Positions 373 through 7,867 of a stretch of DNA of 9,109 nucleotides are shown one piece after another. The stretch spans positions 1 through 9,109 of the forward strand of contig NZER01000100.1 of assembly GCA_002690445.1 (NCBI GenBank). The letters are read 5' to 3'. Within the stretch, counting starts at the first letter, position 1; each line of letters begins with the position of its first letter. This DNA comes from Candidatus Pacearchaeota archaeon (lineage in GTDB: Archaea > Nanoarchaeota > Nanoarchaeia > Pacearchaeales > GW2011-AR1). The position numbers and the translations under genes were made by a program. The notes beneath the pieces were generated by a model that worked only from the letters and a program-made list of their open reading frames with translations, searched no databases and had not been told where the DNA came from.

Positions 373-666
373 ATGATCCCGCTCGTTCTAATCTTCGCGC
401 TTACCAATGGCGCCATACTTGCCGTGTCCACTTGGATTGGTATCCAGCTCTATGACGCTGGCCATGTCATGTGGGCTGGCGTCTATGCCGTAGTGCTCGG
501 GATGGTAGCGATTCAAAAGCTCGGTCAACTGATCCACAATCTCACCGATGAGTACGGGTACCGAAAGAAACATTACAGCGACGTGCCTCAGTATGTGTGG
601 TGGTCGACGGCTTCCGATCTCTACGGATCAGCAAGGCCCGGTGAGATTCGTCGGCGCTATCGGTGA
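373..666 (+). CDS. Small two-span membrane protein (97 aa)
   Basis: Family not recognised. It starts at an ATG preceded by AAGGA about 5 nt upstream, which is a good ribosome-binding site. Two hydrophobic segments are visible: about residues 3-24 (PLVLIFALTNGAILAVSTWI) and about 31-51 (VMWAGVYAVVLGMVAIQ). The tail of roughly 45 residues is polar and aromatic-rich, with NLTDEYGYRKKHYSDVPQY and a basic end RPGEIRRRYR. The basic tail suggests that both termini are cytoplasmic. The gene sits directly between a membrane-peptide gene and a DNA methyltransferase, and its TGA overlaps the GTG start of the latter. It is therefore part of the plus-strand DNA-modification operon rather than the lysis cassette on the other strand. 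That makes a holin role less likely than an accessory or exclusion role, but this is inference. Confidence 0.6.
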   Translation: MIPLVLIFALTNGAILAVSTWIGIQLYDAGHVMWAGVYAVVLGMVAIQKLGQLIHNLTDEYGYRKKHYSDVPQYVWWSTASDLYGSARPGEIRRRYR

Positions 667-1652
667 TCATGTGGGATCTTCGTATCGCAGACGCCCGCGC
701 TCTGCCGTTTGATGATGGATGTGCTCATACGTGCGTGACTTCTCCGCCCTACTTTGGGCTCAGGGATTACGGGCACGACGGGCAGATCGGCCTGGATGAT
801 AGCCTTGATGAATACGTGAGAGATCTCGTGCAAGTGTTTCAGGATGTGCGGCGGGTTCTTCGGGACGATGGGACACTGTGGCTCAATCTGGGCGATAGTT
901 ACGCGAGCACAACGAAGGGCAGCGGCGGCGCGAGCGCCAAGCAGGACAGCAACGCCGGCTCTCGGTATTCACCGCGGCGGGTTGACTTGCCCGACGGTGT
1001 CAAACCCAAAGACCTCATGGGCATACCCTGGCGCGTAGCCTTCGCTCTACAGGCAGACGGCTGGTATCTGCGCTCGGATATCATCTGGCACAAGACAAAC
1101 CCAATGCCCGAGAGCGTCAAAGATAGGCCGACAAAAGGCCACGAATATCTTTTCTTGCTCTCGAAATCAGAGCGGTACTTCTATGACGCTGATGCGATCA
1201 AAGAGCCGGCAAGCCAAAGCAAGGCGGGGAATAAAGTGCGGCATTGTCACGATGGAACCAGATGGAGGGCAGATCATCTAGGCGCGTCGATCCCATGGGT
1301 TAATGGTGGGCAGGGCAGAAACAAGCGCAGCGTGTGGACGGTGACCACCACGTCATATAAGGGCGCCCACTTTGCGACCTACCCGCCGGATCTAATCGAG
1401 CCGTGTATACTCGCAGGCTCACCAGATCATGGCACCGTGCTTGACCCTTTCACGGGCAGCGGCACCACCGGAGCAGTAGCAATCAAGCACGGGCGGCGCT
1501 TCATTGGGACAGAGCTAAATTCAGACTATGGCGATCTCGCTCGGGAGCGAATGACCAGAGCACTCGAGGCGTCAGGGCGAGCTACTGCGGAGAACACTGG
1601 GCCAGATGATAGAGTGCAGCTCGGGCTAAACCTCAATGCTCCTACATCGTAG
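663..1652 (+). CDS. Site-specific DNA methyltransferase, N4/N6 type, beta-class order
   Basis: Transfers a methyl group from S-adenosylmethionine to an exocyclic amino group in DNA, probably to protect phage DNA from restriction. Seen: the catalytic motif IV TSPPY at residues 26-30 near the N-terminus, followed by FGLRDYG. The AdoMet-binding motif I, DPFTGSGTTG, comes late at 261-270. Between them lie LRDDGTLWLNLGDSY, IPWRVAFALQADGWYLRSDI and NKRSVWTV, which are typical of the large phage and prophage N6_N4_Mtase group (PF01555). Order IV - recognition region - I is the beta class. A T/SPPY motif, unlike DPPY, usually indicates N4-cytosine methylation, though adenine cannot be excluded. At 329 aa it is full length. 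The start is either GTG 663 (GTGA overlap with the upstream stop) or ATG 669; neither has a clear ribosome-binding site. No cognate restriction enzyme is adjacent, so it is probably an orphan enzyme. Confidence 0.93.
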   Translation: MIMWDLRIADARALPFDDGCAHTCVTSPPYFGLRDYGHDGQIGLDDSLDEYVRDLVQVFQDVRRVLRDDGTLWLNLGDSYASTTKGSGGASAKQDSNAGSRYSPRRVDLPDGVKPKDLMGIPWRVAFALQADGWYLRSDIIWHKTNPMPESVKDRPTKGHEYLFLLSKSERYFYDADAIKEPASQSKAGNKVRHCHDGTRWRADHLGASIPWVNGGQGRNKRSVWTVTTTSYKGAHFATYPPDLIEPCILAGSPDHGTVLDPFTGSGTTGAVAIKHGRRFIGTELNSDYGDLARERMTRALEASGRATAENTGPDDRVQLGLNLNAPTS

Positions 1653-1821
1653 GACAACGACTCGCACAACTCGCCGGCTTTGACTCTCAAGGTCGAGCAA
1701 AGCCCGGACGGTGACCACAAACAAACACCATAGACGAAAGGGGACTTCTCCCGAAACTCAACACCGTCCGGGTATATCTTAACTTTGACACGTCGCAAAG
1801 TGACCCCGTAACATTCCGATC
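1653..1821 (+). other. Non-coding gap with a long perfect inverted repeat (possible structured RNA or cruciform)
   Basis: No plausible gene lies in these 169 bases. CCCGGACGGTG at 1703-1713 is the exact reverse complement of CACCGTCCGGG at 1762-1772, which gives an 11-bp GC-rich stem. The 48-nt loop contains a second small hairpin, GGGA-CTTC-TCCC (1741-1752). The stem is not followed by a T-run, so it is not a standard terminator on the plus strand. It could be a structured leader of the nuclease gene that starts 49 nt downstream, an RNA-processing site or a DNA cruciform. A TTGACA (1785-1790) with a poor TAACAT 18 bp later lies just before that gene. Confidence 0.5.
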
Positions 1822-2316
1822 ATGGAACACCGCGACCGAGTTCTTCGAGCGCTGAATGCTTTCTTCGAATCTCCTAAGGCGAGACAACCACCGGTGGAGA
1901 AGACGAAGAGCAAGCCGAAGAAGAAGCTCGCGCCTAATTCGCGATATGCTGGGATCCCTACCGAGGCGAGTGAACAAGTAAAGCTTGCCGGTCTGCTCAA
2001 TCAGCTCACCGTCGACGACGAGCCGGTGCTTTGGTTTCATGTGCCCAATGAGAGCGGTGGGCTCGGCGCGCGCTCAGGGTACCGACGCAAGCAGCTCGGA
2101 GTGCTCAAGGGTGTGAGTGATATTCTGATCCTCACACCAGGCCCGCTGACCGGCACACCTACCGCCATCGAGCTGAAGCGGGTGAAGTATTCGAGCACCT
2201 CGCCAGAGCAACTAGAATTTCTCAGGAGGGCCGAGCGCTGTGGATGGGGTGTGCATATCTGCAAAGGCTTCAACGCCGCTGTAGAGGTTCTGAGAGCCGC
2301 TGGTTACTGCTCTTGA
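1822..2316 (+). CDS. VRR-NUC domain nuclease
   Basis: A small endonuclease of the PD-(D/E)XK superfamily, VRR-NUC type (PF08774). These often occur as stand-alone phage proteins and have been linked to structure-specific or Holliday-junction cleavage in repair and replication. Seen: a basic, Pro/Lys-rich N-terminal extension (about 19-38). Then E51-Q52 in the first helix, FHVPNE at 72-77, GVLKGVSDILIL with D100, and AIELK with E117 and K119 as the core D...ExK catalytic set. Q130 with the FL pair (SPEQLEFL) and the GWGVHICKGFNAAVEVL C-terminal strand and helix are also family traits. At 164 aa the length is normal once the basic tail is counted. The ATG is used, but the ribosome-binding site is weak. 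It is the last plus-strand gene before a convergent terminator and follows a methyltransferase, so it fits a DNA-processing module. The exact substrate is unknown. Confidence 0.88.
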   Translation: MEHRDRVLRALNAFFESPKARQPPVEKTKSKPKKKLAPNSRYAGIPTEASEQVKLAGLLNQLTVDDEPVLWFHVPNESGGLGARSGYRRKQLGVLKGVSDILILTPGPLTGTPTAIELKRVKYSSTSPEQLEFLRRAERCGWGVHICKGFNAAVEVLRAAGYCS

Positions 2317-2324
2317 CCCGGATC

Positions 2325-2349
2325 AAAAAAGCCCGGACGATGCCGGGCT
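2325..2349 (-). terminator. Rho-independent terminator between convergent gene sets
   Basis: Perfect 7-bp stem AGCCCGG (2330-2336) with CCGGGCT (2343-2349) and a 6-nt loop. Read on the minus strand, the stem is followed at once by six T residues (AAAAAA at 2325-2330 on the plus strand, sharing one base with the stem). It therefore ends the minus-strand repressor operon, whose last stop is about 40 nt upstream. On the plus strand there is only a weak GATTTGAG after the stem, so termination of the nuclease transcript here is possible but weaker. Confidence 0.85.
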
Positions 2350-2388
2350 GATTTGAGTCAATTGGTAAGACCGTTCTGAGTTCAACCT

Positions 2389-2820
2389 TCAGCCAAGCAA
2401 GCCGTGCGCTCGAAGCTCTGACCGGCTGATCATATTAGCATCGAGCTTGATGGCTAGTTGCTCCAGCTGGTGCTTCGTCACCTTGCCTCGATACCACTTC
2501 TCAATGCCGTCTCGAAGCTCTTGACGCTTGATGAGCGCACTTCGCTCTAGTGCCAGGTACTCCAGGCTGACGCCCTTCCGCCAATAGCTGAAGGTGTGCG
2601 ACTCCTTGATGACGAGAGGAGGTCCCGACGGGCCGACGAAGTTCGGATTGAGCATCGCGGAGTAAACCCACCAATGGACCACCAAGCAGTCACCGCGTTC
2701 AACCGCATCGACCGCCAACCAATACAGATCCTCAAGGTTGTCACTCGTGTGATGCGAAGCGTAGCCATCGCAGGAGGGCCGGCCTCCGATACACAACTTG
2801 TAGAGGTGTCTCATAGCCAT
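2389..2820 (-). CDS. Unknown phage protein (143 aa), third gene of the repressor operon
   Basis: Family not recognised. The ATG at 2820 shares its A with the TGA of the upstream gene (TGATG), so translation is probably coupled. A GTG one codon earlier (2823) and an ATG two codons later (2814) are alternatives. The product is soluble, with no signal peptide or membrane segment. The N-terminal half is rich in aromatic, Cys and His residues: LYKLCIGGRPSCDGYASHHT, then LEDLYWLAVDAVERGDCLVVHWWVYSAM. The C-terminal part looks helical and charged (LEYLALERSALIKRQELRDGIEKWYRGKVTKHQLEQLAIKLDA). It is the last gene before a strong terminator in a repressor-controlled operon, so its expression is probably restricted by that repressor. 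Its function is unknown; the position suggests an accessory (moron-like) role. Confidence 0.68.
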   Translation of the reverse strand: MAMRHLYKLCIGGRPSCDGYASHHTSDNLEDLYWLAVDAVERGDCLVVHWWVYSAMLNPNFVGPSGPPLVIKESHTFSYWRKGVSLEYLALERSALIKRQELRDGIEKWYRGKVTKHQLEQLAIKLDANMISRSELRAHGLLG

Positions 2821-3527
2821 CACTCAAACAACCGAGCATCACACACAACGACGTTGCCAAGCAGCTCGACGCCGAGCACCGCGAGCGCGCACTCATTGAA
2901 CGCTAGGTCTCGCTTCAAGAGACCATCTTCATCAGCCAGCACGATGACCTGGTCACACTTCAGCTCGTGGCAGAGTGCCGACCAGTCACCAAGTATCTCT
3001 TGAACGTACCCGCCGATCAGCTTTTGCATCTCTGCGAGTGTGAAAGGTTCCGAGCGGTGCTGAGTCTCAAGGACAGAGTCACCGGGTTTTAGGACTGCGT
3101 ATCTCATTGTCTTCATCTTCTCAGCCAGCTCATCAAGTCTTGCCCACACTCGATCACCGTGCTCACCCCAGCCAGGCAAATCGACGAGTGCGCCCTCACG
3201 ACCATTCTCGAAGTCGTCGAAGGTGAGGATCCGATCCTCGCCATTGAGCACGACATGAAAGGCGTCGCCTTCGAGCACGTGACCCGCTAAGTCGTAGCCC
3301 GCTGAGTGAAGCTCGACGCTGATCTCGATCCAGTGCGATGTGTCGAAGCTGCTCATCGCTTTCTCAAGGGCTTGAGTGAAGCCAGGCACACGCAAAGCTT
3401 CGCGCCTACCGGCTAGGCTGTCACCGTGACCGAGACGCGTATAGGCAGCTTGCACAAATTCAGCTTCGCTCGTCGCATCGTCGACCAAAGGTTTCCATTC
3501 TTGCTCAAACGTTTTCATTGTCTTCAT
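2820..3527 (-). CDS. Two-part protein with C-terminal DUF3846-like domain (235 aa)
   Basis: The C-terminal 95 residues (about 141-235) resemble DUF3846 (PF12957), a domain of unknown function common in phages and mobile elements. Seen: RYAVLKPGDSV at the domain start, LAEMQKLIGGYVQEIL (164-179), then VIVLADEDGLLK (194-205), a conserved-type Asn (N211) and LLGNVVV (222-228). The N-terminal 140 residues are acidic, have aromatic-rich segments such as HWIEISVELHSAGYDLAGHV, and match no family I know. The start overlaps the repressor stop (ATGA). A second ATG three codons later is better placed relative to AGGG. The 14-nt sequence spanning the start recurs exactly at codons 138-142, just before the DUF3846-like part, which suggests a fusion or an internal start. 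The domain name is from memory of the family pattern. Confidence 0.72.
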   Translation of the reverse strand: MKTMKTFEQEWKPLVDDATSEAEFVQAAYTRLGHGDSLAGRREALRVPGFTQALEKAMSSFDTSHWIEISVELHSAGYDLAGHVLEGDAFHVVLNGEDRILTFDDFENGREGALVDLPGWGEHGDRVWARLDELAEKMKTMRYAVLKPGDSVLETQHRSEPFTLAEMQKLIGGYVQEILGDWSALCHELKCDQVIVLADEDGLLKRDLAFNECALAVLGVELLGNVVVCDARLFE

Positions 3528-3751
3528 CCCTGTTCTACGGCTTCATCGAACCACATCATGATGAGCTTGCTGCGCTGTCGAGCGCTCACCTTGCAAGCTG
3601 ACATGACGTGTTCGAGATTCACCGGTGTGATGTGAGTGGCGCCGCGCTCAATCTGAGATACGGCACCTTGGGTTATACCCGCCGCTTCGGCGAGCTGGGT
3701 TTGTGTCAGGCCCGCCTTAGTGCGGATCGCTTTCAATTCATCAACTAGCAT
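3524..3751 (-). CDS. XRE/Cro-CI family transcriptional repressor (75 aa)
   Basis: A single-domain helix-turn-helix DNA-binding protein. Seen: ELKAIRTKAGLTQTQLAEAAG, with helix 2 at about residues 16-25, then ITQGAVSQIERG with recognition helix 3 at about 27-37. The TPVNLEHVMSAC stretch gives helices 4 and 5. This is the standard HTH_3 layout of Cro-sized repressors. There is no C-terminal peptidase domain, so it is not a LexA/CI-type cleavable repressor. The start is firm: ATG 3751 has a strong GGAGGTGA ribosome-binding site ending 4 nt upstream. It is the first gene of a three-gene operon. Two matching 17-bp inverted repeats lie upstream, one overlapping the -10 box, so autorepression is likely. 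Whether it is a lysogeny switch or a local controller of the two following genes cannot be told without the rest of the genome. Confidence 0.93.
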   Translation of the reverse strand: MLVDELKAIRTKAGLTQTQLAEAAGITQGAVSQIERGATHITPVNLEHVMSACKVSARQRSKLIMMWFDEAVEQG

Positions 3752-3755
3752 TGAG

Positions 3756-3763
3756 TCACCTCC
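3756..3763 (-). promoter_or_regulatory. Strong ribosome-binding site of the repressor gene
   Basis: Minus strand GGAGGTGA, close to the ideal anti-16S complement, with 4 nt between its end and the ATG at 3751. It is the strongest such site in the window and fixes the repressor start. Confidence 0.9.
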
Positions 3764-3802
3764 AGCGGTTGATTTCGTTGGTTGGTCCTCTTGGTAGGCT
3801 CA

Positions 3803-3821
3803 ATAATAGCCCAGCTACTAT
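3803..3821. promoter_or_regulatory. Operator 1 for the XRE repressor (17-19 bp inverted repeat)
   Basis: TAATAG-CCCAG-CTACTA at 3804-3820: the half-sites are inverted with one mismatch, and the A/T pair at 3803/3821 extends the symmetry to 19 bp. The 17-bp size is typical of Cro/CI-type dimers. It overlaps the -10 box of the repressor promoter. Confidence 0.7.
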
Positions 3822-3832
3822 GTGAAAGTCCA
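3803..3832 (-). promoter_or_regulatory. Predicted promoter of the repressor operon
   Basis: On the minus strand, TGGACT (3832-3827) matches the -35 consensus at 4 of 6 positions. After an 18-bp spacer, TATTAT (3808-3803) matches the -10 consensus at 5 of 6. Transcription would start near 3796, about 45 nt before the repressor ATG. One operator covers the -10 box and much of the spacer, so bound repressor would exclude RNA polymerase. This is a prediction from the sequence. Confidence 0.65.
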
Positions 3833-3837
3833 GGGAA

Positions 3838-3854
3838 TAGTAGGGGCGCTACTA
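3838..3854. promoter_or_regulatory. Operator 2 for the XRE repressor (17 bp inverted repeat)
   Basis: TAGTAG-GGGCG-CTACTA is a perfect inverted repeat with the same 5-bp spacer as operator 1. The centres are 34 bp apart, close to three helical turns, so two dimers would lie on about the same face of the DNA and could bind cooperatively. It lies just upstream of the -35 box. The CTACTA half-site is identical in both operators; the other half differs at one base. Confidence 0.72.
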
Positions 3855-3857
3855 CCG

Positions 3858-3933
3858 AAAAAACCCACACCGAGAGCAAGCCTCCCAAATGAGGGCACCA
3901 AAGCAGGGGACGCCGGCGCCTAGTTCCCGGTGT
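3858..3933 (-). terminator. Possible structured terminator at the end of the late (tail-lysis) transcript
   Basis: On the minus strand, ACACCG (3933-3928) can pair with CGGTGT (3872-3867), followed after GGG by six T residues (3863-3858). Smaller inverted repeats lie inside the loop: GGGA with TCCC, and CCTC with GAGG. This would separate the late genes from the independently promoted repressor operon. The closing stem is only 6 bp and the loop is long, so the call is tentative. The rest of the 3764-3962 gap holds the repressor promoter and operators; I see no gene in it. Confidence 0.3.
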
Positions 3934-3962
3934 CTATTCAGTTTTTCAGGAGTGCTCAGCGC

Positions 3963-4205
3963 TCAGAATTGAGCCAAATTCGGCGTACTTTTTTTGAGCT
4001 GTAGAGACGCTTTTTCGAGGGATCCGACCGCTTCGATATAGATCGCTGGGCTCAGCGGCTGACCTTCCTCGATGCAGCGCACCACCTCCTCGACGATTTC
4101 AATGAGTTCCGAGACCGGCTCACCCGTCGCTTCGACGCACGTCGGCCAGATGATTGGCCCGTGGTACAGCTCGTCACAATTCACGCAAGCTCGGTGCTCA
4201 TCCAT
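3963..4205 (-). CDS. Small Cys-rich protein downstream of the endolysin (80 aa)
   Basis: Family not recognised. ATG 4205 is chosen over an upstream GTG (4229) because AGGAG lies 8 nt before it. The resulting 8-nt overlap with the end of the amidase gene is normal for this compact operon. The N-terminus carries C7-x2-C10, then H15 and C23 (CVNCDELYHGPIIWPTC), a spacing that could bind zinc as a small knuckle. The rest is acidic and helical (SELIEIVEEVVRCIEEG, then YIEAVGSLEKASLQLKK). There is no signal peptide or membrane segment, so it is not a spanin. It is the last gene of the late minus-strand run. A five-bp hairpin (GCTCA with TGAGC, 3961-3974) spans its stop codon but has no U-tract. Confidence 0.62.
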   Translation of the reverse strand: MDEHRACVNCDELYHGPIIWPTCVEATGEPVSELIEIVEEVVRCIEEGQPLSPAIYIEAVGSLEKASLQLKKSTPNLAQF

Positions 4206-4758
4206 GGGTCGTGCTCCTGAAGCTGACACCTTGAAACTCTAGCATCCCTCGCGCCAGCTCGGCGGCAACTTCATCAGCGTCGGATCTCAATTTGCCCATC
4301 GGTAGCAGATGACCCGGGCATGCTTTGCTCGGATCAGAGCTAGCACCATGAAGCTCATCGTGACCGTGAATCTCTAAGCCGTAGAGTCTCCAGAATCCCG
4401 CGAACCTCTTGAGCGCTTCGTACTGCTCGAAGCTCGGCGGGTACACTCTGAAGTCTCCGATGAGAGCAACCGCCACACCCGTCGAGTTGTAGCGCTTGGC
4501 GTGCGGTGCGTTGTCACCGAGTGTCAGTGCTTGCTGAACTCTACCAGCACGATTGATGACGAAGTGGTAGGGCATGTGTCCACCGGTGTATGAGCCGGCC
4601 TTGAAGCGCCGCGTGTCTTGAAACGCCTTCGAGATCTCGATCGCATCTTTGCCAAGCTCGCCACCGATACGATGCACGATGAGCTTGGTGACTGACTCGA
4701 AGTCTCGACGACGCAACCGACCGTCATCACACTGAGCGATCACGTCCTCAACTTGCAT
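4198..4758 (-). CDS. Endolysin, N-acetylmuramoyl-L-alanine amidase (Amidase_2/PGRP fold)
   Basis: Cuts the amide bond between N-acetylmuramic acid and L-alanine in peptidoglycan at the end of infection. Numbered from ATG 4758 (186 aa), the visible T7-lysozyme-like zinc and catalytic residues are H29 (LIVHRIG), Y64-H65 (PYHFVINRAG), H133 (GHDE), K145 and C147 (KACPG). The RYNSTGVAVALIGDF strand is also typical of the family. A GTG two codons upstream (4764) is an alternative start; neither has a strong ribosome-binding site. Translation may be coupled to the preceding gene, whose stop lies inside this one. There is no signal peptide, transmembrane anchor or separate cell-wall-binding domain. 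Its release therefore depends on a holin, which fits the holin-like gene upstream and a Gram-negative host. Confidence 0.92.
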   Translation of the reverse strand: MQVEDVIAQCDDGRLRRRDFESVTKLIVHRIGGELGKDAIEISKAFQDTRRFKAGSYTGGHMPYHFVINRAGRVQQALTLGDNAPHAKRYNSTGVAVALIGDFRVYPPSFEQYEALKRFAGFWRLYGLEIHGHDELHGASSDPSKACPGHLLPMGKLRSDADEVAAELARGMLEFQGVSFRSTTHG

Positions 4759-4963
4759 CGTCACTGCTCATCAACTTGAAGTGCCAGGTCTGACGAACGA
4801 GCCATGAGCGGCACGCGTAGGAGCTGCGGATCTTGTTTAGGATCTGGAGCGCTTCGAACGTTGGAATACCGAACCGATCGGCGACGAGTTGAACCGTGAC
4901 CGATTGCTTTCTCATCAGCGGTATCAGCTTCGGCAAAATGAGATCCCATGATGGCCCGCTCAC
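4748..4963 (-). CDS. Winged-helix-like small protein in the lysis region (71 aa)
   Basis: The segment SVTVQLVADRFGIPTFEALQILNKI followed by LVRQTWHFKL has the look of a winged helix-turn-helix: helix, turn, recognition helix, then a two-strand wing. It may therefore bind nucleic acid, but no specific family is recognised. The frame is open up to a TTG at 4996 (82 aa). I prefer GTG 4963 because it overlaps the TGA of the upstream ORF (GTGA), the same junction style as the methyltransferase gene, and AGGG lies 7 nt before it. The 3' end overlaps the amidase start. A DNA-binding protein between holin and endolysin is unusual; it could regulate late expression or be an unrelated insert. Confidence 0.55.
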   Translation of the reverse strand: MSGPSWDLILPKLIPLMRKQSVTVQLVADRFGIPTFEALQILNKIRSSYACRSWLVRQTWHFKLMSSDDAS

Positions 4964-5778: not shown

Positions 5779-6033
5779 TCAGCTCGCCGGATCTTCCGGT
5801 GGTCCAGCATCCTCGACTGTGTGACCGCCTGTGCTCATCTGGTCCTTCAGGGCTGCAATTGCGTTGTCGATGAGTTCAGTGATTGCATCACCCGACATCG
5901 GCAGGCTCACACCGAAGCGCGTATTCTCTACTTCGGGCAATGTTGCGATTGCTTGGCATTGTGCCGAGACTTCGCCAGTTGCTACGTCTTTACTGATAGT
6001 CACTTGTACCTGGTGGAGTTTCTTAATCGCCAT
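5779..6033 (-). CDS. Small late protein of unknown function (84 aa)
   Basis: Family not recognised. The ATG lies inside the end of the tail-fibre gene (11-nt overlap), with GGAG about 10 nt upstream, so translation is probably coupled to the fibre. Residues 3-36 look like two or three beta strands (KKLHQVQVTISKDVATGEVS, then AQCQAIATLPEV). Then comes a possible helix (DAITELIDNAIAALKDQM) and an acidic, Pro-rich tail. There is no membrane segment. Its place between the tail fibre and lysis genes suggests a fibre-associated or assembly protein, but the sequence gives no direct proof. Confidence 0.62.
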   Translation of the reverse strand: MAIKKLHQVQVTISKDVATGEVSAQCQAIATLPEVENTRFGVSLPMSGDAITELIDNAIAALKDQMSTGGHTVEDAGPPEDPAS

Positions 6034-7867
6034 CGTTCTCTAGCTCCTCGATTCGTGCGCTCAGCTCCTGCACTGCCTTGATTAGCATTGGAACAAGAAC
6101 GCTGTATTTTACTGACTTTTGGTCTTCGAGACCGCCGATGAGTTCCTTCGACACTTCGATTTGCCCATCATCACCCACACTCTCGGTGCGGGAGTAGGTC
6201 CGGGCGTCACTGCTTTTGACCAGACCGGGGAAAACTTCGGCAACCTCATCAGCCACTAGTCCGATTTGCTTTAAATCGTCACCGATAAAATTGAAGTTGC
6301 GAACCTGGAGCTTGTTGATGTCACTGAGCTTTGAGGTTGCATCGGTGATGTTCTCTTTCAGTCTTCGATCAGAGATGCCACCGTAAGAGTTGTTCGTGTT
6401 CTCGCAATCACCGTCGCTCTTGACGTGAAAGAACGTTGAGCTTGGACCCGCGTACTTGATCGCGTCACCAGTGCCCGTGTTGGCCAGGTCAACCACGATG
6501 GGGTTGTTGGTGGTGTCGTCCATCTCGCACTTGATGCAATTGCGGTCGTTAACTACGCTAATGGCACTCGGATCGCCTGCGGTGTTCGACGTGCCAACCA
6601 CAACATGAAGCTGGGCCTCCGATGTGGTGTTGTTGTTCCCTAAATTCAGTGCACTGTATCTCATGTAGCTGCCGGTGGTGGCGCTCTTTAGCACCGTCCG
6701 GGTTGAGCCCGCAGCAGAATCTATCTGGAGCGTTGCATCATCGGCGTCTGATGAAAATGAGAAACGATTCTCGCCCTCATGATTCAGAATCTGCAATGTA
6801 CCGGTGTTGCTTAGCCGCATATATTCCAGCGGTGTCTCTGTCCCGTCTCTTGACGTAGCAAAAACTAACTCTGTCGGCATATCCCCATCGCCTGGCGTGC
6901 CATTTACGCGGGCAAAAATCTTTGCGCCTGTGGCCCAAGAGTCCCCGTCTTCAGCTCCTTGGAATTCGATGTTTCCAAGAATGTCATCATCCTGAACGAC
7001 GGTGGCAGAGCCATCCGTAGCGTTTCGAGACTTGGTGAAGACGAGGCTTTTGCCAAATTCGTCAGCGCTGTTGGTGACAATGCCGAGGTCGCCATCTTGG
7101 ACGTGGACCTTGTGAACGGGCGCAGTGGATCCCACCCCAACGAATCCACTACTCTTGATGGTCAGACGCTCGTTGTTGAACGTGTTAAAGCTCATTGTGT
7201 TGGTTGAGTGGTCGTACTCAATTTTTCCCGATGCCGCTTCGTCGCTGAAATGGATCTTGCCAACCCGGTTTGTGTCAGTCAGAATCGTTAGGCCCGCACC
7301 ATCAGACTCATTGCTTTCAATGACCAACATATCAGCACCATCAGCACCACTCAGGGTAACGCCAGTGTCGGACTCATAGATGTGAATCCCCCCGGCTTCA
7401 CAGAGTGCCGTGTCCTCACCCCCGGTGGTGATTTTTCCGCCTGAGTCGATCGATAACCGCACCGCGCCATTGTTGTGGAGGTCCAGCCTGTTGGTGCCGT
7501 GCACGTATTGGATTGCGCCCTGATAGTTGCTGCCTGAATCAGCGAACACGACTGCGCCAGTGTTGGCGTTGCCGCTTTGAATCGTTATTCCAGACGACGC
7601 AGAACCCTCAACAACAAGTTCATCGGCATAGGCATGAGCGGCAGATTGACCCGAGTCGGCAGTTCGAACGTGAAGCTGGGCCAGAGGGGCTGCTTTGTTC
7701 ACCCCGACCTTCGCACCACCACCCGCAAGAAGCAGTCTCTCATTCTCGGTGTCGATCTCAATGAAATCAAGGCCCGCAGTGTCCTCGATTAGAAGCGCTG
7801 GATCCTTCCCATCGTCAATTACAGACGTCCCGCCAACCGCGCCGCCTACTTCTTTACCCGTTGCCAT
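6023..7867 (-). CDS. Tail fibre/spike protein with C-terminal S74 intramolecular chaperone
   Basis: A virion receptor-binding or fibre protein whose trimer is folded by a C-terminal chaperone (Peptidase_S74, PF13884) that then cleaves itself off. Seen: SDRRLKENI at 499-507, with S499 and K504 spaced five apart as in the Ser-Lys dyad described for the endosialidase chaperone. Cleavage just before S499 would release 116 residues. The chaperone continues with IGLVADEVAEVFPGLV and ends in a coiled coil (VQELSARIEELEN). The shaft (about 40-490) is beta-rich and repetitive. GVNKAAPLAQLHV (55-67) and GVGSTAPVHKVHV (244-256) are variants of a motif common in phage fibres. GxIxYxHxTN...RLxIxS recurs at 117-142 and 214-239, and WATGAKIFARVNGTPG follows later. 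The start is ATG 7867; the ribosome-binding site is weak (AAAGG). Confidence 0.92.
   Translation of the reverse strand: MATGKEVGGAVGGTSVIDDGKDPALLIEDTAGLDFIEIDTENERLLLAGGGAKVGVNKAAPLAQLHVRTADSGQSAAHAYADELVVEGSASSGITIQSGNANTGAVVFADSGSNYQGAIQYVHGTNRLDLHNNGAVRLSIDSGGKITTGGEDTALCEAGGIHIYESDTGVTLSGADGADMLVIESNESDGAGLTILTDTNRVGKIHFSDEAASGKIEYDHSTNTMSFNTFNNERLTIKSSGFVGVGSTAPVHKVHVQDGDLGIVTNSADEFGKSLVFTKSRNATDGSATVVQDDDILGNIEFQGAEDGDSWATGAKIFARVNGTPGDGDMPTELVFATSRDGTETPLEYMRLSNTGTLQILNHEGENRFSFSSDADDATLQIDSAAGSTRTVLKSATTGSYMRYSALNLGNNNTTSEAQLHVVVGTSNTAGDPSAISVVNDRNCIKCEMDDTTNNPIVVDLANTGTGDAIKYAGPSSTFFHVKSDGDCENTNNSYGGISDRRLKENITDATSKLSDINKLQVRNFNFIGDDLKQIGLVADEVAEVFPGLVKSSDARTYSRTESVGDDGQIEVSKELIGGLEDQKSVKYSVLVPMLIKAVQELSARIEELENDGD

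Follow-up and report, generated by a model that had tools for sequence, protein, structure and literature searches.

An operon of three genes on the minus strand, headed by a small XRE-type regulator, was found in DNA assigned to Candidatus Pacearchaeota archaeon (GCA_002690445.1, contig NZER01000100.1), and we consider it fairly probable that this is a self-regulating accessory phage operon encoding a regulator, a partner protein of that regulator and an effector. The window, by which the whole analysed stretch of 9,109 nucleotides is meant, looks like a portion of a tailed-phage genome. A preliminary description of this DNA had proposed a self-contained operon that has a regulator, a pair of matched operators and a terminator of its own, and this view is well supported by the sequence. 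Self-controlled operons are a known kind, and the two downstream genes belong to almost unknown families. Two results go beyond the preliminary description: a gene fusion which links the second protein to the regulator and which is the strongest new evidence, and the likeness of the operators to those of C.Csp231I and of the Aca autorepressors.

The genes follow each other in the order XRE regulator, 235-aa protein and 144-aa protein (Table 1), and are coupled by overlaps of four bases, ATGA between the first two (3524-3527) and GTGA between the last two (2820-2823). The described anatomy, an XRE gene in front of two coupled genes, is real; only the length of the last protein, given as 143 aa in the earlier text, has to be corrected to 144 aa. 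The operon is situated between the tail-fibre and amidase genes of the minus strand and the methyltransferase and VRR-NUC genes of the plus strand. Phage accessory loci, also known as morons, are sets of genes beside late genes which have their own promoter and terminator. The present gene set likewise lies beside late genes with a promoter-like sequence and a terminator of its own, but differs from such loci in having its own regulator with two operators and in its G+C content, which at 55.2% is no different from that of the window (55.7%).

Table 1. Features of the operon and of its surroundings in the window.
Feature	Position	Strand	Remark
DNA methyltransferase	663-1652	+	convergent with the operon
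VRR-NUC-like protein	1822-2316	+	E 6.6e-4, under the Pfam cut-off; phrog_824 E 2e-29
Intrinsic terminator	2325-2349	-	stem-loop 2349-2330, then U tract (TTTTT)
144-aa protein	2389-2823	-	family unrecognised, presumed effector
235-aa protein	2820-3527	-	helical N-terminus, central domain and DUF3846-like C-terminus; presumed XRE partner
DUF3846-like domain of 235-aa protein	2820-3116	-	26.6 bits by itself
Central domain of 235-aa protein	3108-3332	-	fused to XRE domain in P0002 and P0003
XRE-type regulator, 75 aa	3524-3751	-	HTH_3 E 1.9e-13; presumed autorepressor
Ribosome binding site of XRE gene	3757-3763	-	GGAGGTG, from sequence
Predicted -10 box	3803-3808	-	TATTAT
Proximal operator (OR-like)	3804-3820		predicted site; one mismatch from a perfect palindrome; covers -10 box
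Predicted -35 box	3827-3832	-	TGGACT
Distal operator (OL-like)	3838-3854		predicted site; perfect 6-N5-6 inverted repeat; upstream of -35 box
Amidase	4198-4764	-	E 3.6e-13
Tail-fibre protein	6023-7867	-	phrog_9942 E 4.7e-40

On the plus strand the proximal operator reads TAATAGCCCAGCTACTA and the distal one TAGTAGGGGCGCTACTA. Both inverted repeats are 17 bp long; they are separated by a gap of 17 bp, and their centres lie 34 bp apart. In order to avoid tuning the test to the observed motif, any pair of near-palindromes with half-sites of 6 bp, spacers of 0-12 and sites at most 80 bp apart was scored in shuffled sequences. The score of the operator pair, 23 out of 24, was reached in none of 3000 dinucleotide shuffles of the region 3752-3962 and, when the whole window was shuffled 200 times, in one. 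The matching pair noticed earlier is borne out, and so is the overlap of the first operator with the predicted -10 box. No further copy within two mismatches of the symmetric form was found elsewhere in the window; the XRE protein therefore most likely controls its own promoter, as judged from the sequence. The predicted promoter, TGGACT-18-TATTAT, agrees with the consensus at 9 of 12 positions, but its score is not above chance, since the window contains five such sites and its shuffles contain 3.5 (sd 1.8).

The closing hairpin with its U tract could be confirmed: for positions 2320-2360 the folding energy is -18.0 kcal/mol (z -4.41), and none of 200 shuffles was as stable. On the plus strand the hairpin is just as stable but is not followed by a U tract, and the terminator thus mainly serves the minus-strand operon. 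Between the late genes and the operators no convincing terminator was found; the region 3852-3940, which lies between the upstream late gene and the operators and ends in GGGTTTTTT, folds no better than its shuffles (z -0.25; 79 of the 200 were at least equally stable), and transcription from the late genes may therefore also enter the operon. The statement that the unit is controlled separately is only partly supported, because the promoter scores at chance level and a strong upstream terminator was not found. As minus-strand RNA the two operators of 3796-3860 can form a common stem (-21.0 kcal/mol, z -2.36; this stability was reached by 2 of 200 shuffles), so that a role at the RNA level is possible for them. 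Such pairing could matter only in read-through transcripts.

The regulator is an ordinary HTH_3 protein. Its best match in the PDB is C.BclI (E 1.5e-6), followed by entry 4ia8, a "Regulatory protein" (E 4e-4) which we take to be C.Esp1396I; C.AhdI comes third (E 1.1e-3), with the 434 repressor close behind (1.1e-3). Aca3 appears weakly in the same listing (E 0.44), and C.Csp231I matches only residues 1-32 at E 1.4. The top NCBIfam model is the HipB-like antitoxin model TIGR03070 (E 4.1e-10; 39.5 bits, cut-off 71.65), and the PADLOC models hit are those named Control_protein (best E 3.1e-7).

We also looked for similar operators elsewhere. Within 400 bp upstream of 88 distant XRE relatives (8 viral and 80 genomic) the best operator-like site agrees at 9 of 12 bases. 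A scan of IMG/VR for the exact operator-pair pattern with gaps of 8-30 returned nine contigs, seven with a gap of 10 and two with a gap of 28; the gap of 17 seen in the window occurred in none of them, and no XRE-like predicted protein was found within 1200 bp of their sites (best E 0.65 over 10 aa). Six of the nine have one flanking sequence in common, and one of these six matches a Pelagibacter phage tail-tube gene (L177). In L181 the site lies inside a tail-fibre-like frame, and on visual inspection L179 and L184 seem repetitive. All nine contigs were read as coincidence and rejected as relatives of the operators. Neither they nor the distant XRE relatives support or refute the proposed reading of the operon.

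Three relatives of the 235-aa protein were found among 1171 candidates, and a second search with the central domain returned the same three proteins (5 candidates). P0001 is 95% identical and begins at an internal methionine, so that the 235-aa protein may itself start at 3518. The metagenomic proteins P0002 and P0003 are made up of the central domain and, behind it, an XRE domain, which is 43% and 39% identical, respectively, to the regulator of the window; the BLAST match of both runs weakly beyond the central domain. Each comes from a single short contig (763 and 1042 bp), and P0003 breaks off before its XRE domain is complete. As these two proteins join its central domain to a related XRE domain, the 235-aa protein is probably the partner of the regulator and would act together with it. 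Controller proteins fused to their partner endonuclease are a known precedent, as described in excerpts of PMC3850674. The fusion link predicts that the XRE protein binds the 235-aa protein.

In the phage collection P0002 matched 15 records at E <=0.01, 14 of which start at residue 77 or later, inside the XRE part. The remaining record, MT837072.1, matches from residue 33 and was rejected as a central-domain fusion: we take it to be a HigA-like antitoxin, located behind a gene which is presumably HigB/RelE-like.

The C-terminal part of the 235-aa protein (residues 142-230) matches DUF3846 (PF12957) at E 7.9e-5, with 23.2 bits below the Pfam cut-off of 27.5; scored alone the domain also stays under this cut-off. 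The 235-aa protein is matched by phrog_3777 (E 8.2e-7) as well, and a DUF3846 protein from a Ruminococcus phage shares 31% identity with this region over 71 aa. The phage protein is a stand-alone protein of 118 aa, whereas the domain of the window is joined to two other regions. In the Ruminococcus phage (NatCom_23091, L170 2417-5363) the DUF3846 protein has an annotated amidoligase and a gamma-glutamyl cyclotransferase in its near neighbourhood. DUF3846 was found in none of 10 bacterial genomes, a count which says little since 14 control genomes gave none either. Among 50 virus records, drawn from 89 viral loci, it occurred in one, L171; the frames of this locus are unlike the operon of the window, and it was rejected as a similar operon. 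In the literature searched DUF3846 was mentioned once, as a domain name only. If the reading of the operon is true, a DUF3846-like protein would for the first time be placed in a functional context.

For the 144-aa protein one relative is 70% identical (P0005); another (P0004) is 100% identical and is listed without sources, like the window's own proteins. The distinct relatives of the two downstream proteins lie on short contigs of at most 1786 bp. The AlphaFold model of the 144-aa protein is weak (pLDDT 61.7), and neither the PDB nor BFVD gave a structural match to it at E <= 0.001; that of the 235-aa protein is too poor for use (pLDDT 46.5).

Neither downstream protein has a relative in the phage and plasmid collections at E <=0.01. 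Likewise no relatives were obtained in IMG/VR scans with either protein, the central-domain alignment or the amidase, in genome contigs scanned with the central domain, or in the phage collection searched with the cassette DNA, the VRR-NUC protein and the amidase, although distant relatives may be missed in the locus scans because these rely on short exact words. The VRR-NUC query of IMG/VR yielded one distant locus, L001. When 15 window proteins were compared to the 81 loci L001-L081, with the methyltransferase rows left out, the only matches were those of the VRR-NUC protein (L001) and of the XRE protein (L060, 39 aa).

According to the proposed mechanism, the XRE protein would bind, probably in dimeric form, to the two matching inverted repeats. 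Occupation of the proximal operator, which overlies the predicted -10 box, should keep RNA polymerase out and would limit the operon's own expression. The distal site may provide mild activation at low protein levels, or may form a short DNA loop with the proximal dimer, both by analogy to C.Csp231I. The gene fusion suggests that the 235-aa protein binds the regulator and tunes repression, as co-repressor or antirepressor, and the 144-aa protein would be the likely output. In this way the phage would make a limited amount of the operon's proteins independently of the late programme, except for what read-through may contribute.

A close likeness in geometry is found in the class of C.Csp231I and C.EcoO109I, where a small XRE regulator is also the first gene. 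In excerpts of PMC4321490 C.Csp231I is described as binding two CTAAG-N5-CTTAG sites 18 bp apart, a gap given as 15 bp in another place of the same source, with near-equal affinities and no obvious cooperativity, and DNA looping is proposed; OL serves it for activation and OR for repression (excerpts of PMC4824078). As in the window, two inverted repeats with an N5 spacer lie upstream of the C gene, and the distance between centres is 34 bp here and 33 bp in Csp231I, the latter calculated from 15-bp sites taken as 18 bp apart. The half-sites, however, are TAGTAG/CTACTA instead of CTAAG/CTTAG, the proximal site covers the -10 box here and the -35 box in Csp231I (as far as given in PMC4824078), and the regulator of 75 aa has no C-terminal extension, in contrast to the 98 aa of C.Csp231I. 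Furthermore, no collinear endonuclease was recognised in the operon. The self-regulating accessory operon, if true, would be a test bed for a controller-like switch with operators 34 bp apart and without a recognised restriction enzyme.

The Aca systems offer a second comparison. Excerpts of PMC9410906 state that Aca promoters invariably have an inverted repeat within the core promoter, that several families have a second, similar one outside, and that aca genes lie downstream of acr genes; in the acrIF8-aca2 promoter there are two repeats, of which IR1 is tightly bound (excerpts of PMC8434428). The operon shares with them a presumed HTH autoregulator in a phage operon and the placement of one repeat in the predicted core promoter and of the second outside. 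It differs in that the regulator gene comes first and no Acr was recognised. By analogy, the precedents of C.Csp231I and Aca alike would give negative autoregulation; the operon may work like both systems, a likeness which does not demonstrate membership in either.

The promoter architecture and the small phage proteins without recognised family could also be read as an anti-defence operon of the Aca style, in which the XRE autorepressor shuts off an early burst and the 235-aa protein, the 144-aa protein or both inhibit a host defence. The weak appearance of Aca3 in the PDB listing may point the same way. We regard this as rather unlikely, as the order of regulator and cargo is the reverse of that in acr-aca operons, PADLOC defence models matched neither downstream protein, and the fused central domain is more in keeping with a regulatory partner than with a defence inhibitor. 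The same fusion bears on an addiction module of the toxin-antitoxin kind, with the XRE protein as autoregulating antitoxin and a downstream gene as toxin: a partner domain joined to a DNA-binding domain is less expected of a toxin than of a regulator, and no toxin family was found in either downstream protein with Pfam and NCBIfam profiles. The coupling of the genes and the HipB-like model as best NCBIfam match would be in line with such a module, which nevertheless appears improbable to us.

Least credible is a module resembling restriction-modification, in which the XRE protein would be the controller, the methyltransferase on the plus strand would protect, and the 235-aa or 144-aa protein would be an unrecognised nuclease. 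C.BclI and C.AhdI among the top PDB matches, the Control_protein models and the operator geometry favour it. In Csp231I the C gene lies ahead of the endonuclease gene; the latter and the methyltransferase gene point towards each other, and a terminator is predicted in between (excerpts of PMC4824078). The layout of the window is the same if the VRR-NUC gene is counted together with the methyltransferase. On the other hand, Pfam, NCBIfam and PADLOC revealed no nuclease family in the two cargo proteins, the 434 repressor and HipB families score near the controllers, and the controller of Csp231I itself hardly matches the regulator. The methyltransferase, moreover, is a gene common in phages (matches in 534 of 50,697 phage records, and at least 600 in IMG/VR).

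A more far-reaching version of the accessory-operon reading is very doubtful. It would be a new two-component switch of the XRE protein and a partner with the central domain, perhaps an Sm/SH3-like barrel, whose DUF3846-like part would sense an infection signal and release a looped complex of the C.Csp231I type, leading to expression of an unknown anti-host protein. For the central domain an Hfq/Sm-like fold is a lead. The Pfam Hfq profile gave E 0.28 in one of four members and no profile match was significant; the PDB search with the central domain returned no Sm or Hfq chain. With hhalign the comparison to Hfq had a probability of 1.8%, and its score of 15.5 was above all 60 column shuffles (maximum 14.45). 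The likeness of the domain to the Sm1 part of Hfq is gap-free over 22 columns but not significant.

Some minor observations concern the plus-strand genes. A methyltransferase-like gene is directly followed by a VRR-NUC-like gene both in the window (663-2316) and in the distant phage locus L001 (3890-5166), where the methyltransferase was so named by eye only. In the window the space between these two genes contains the arms of a long inverted repeat (1687-1713 and 1762-1788), which are 74% complementary and share the perfect core CGGACGGTG/CACCGTCCG. These arms sit just ahead of a promoter match of 10 out of 12, TTGACA-18-TAACAT, at 1785-1814.
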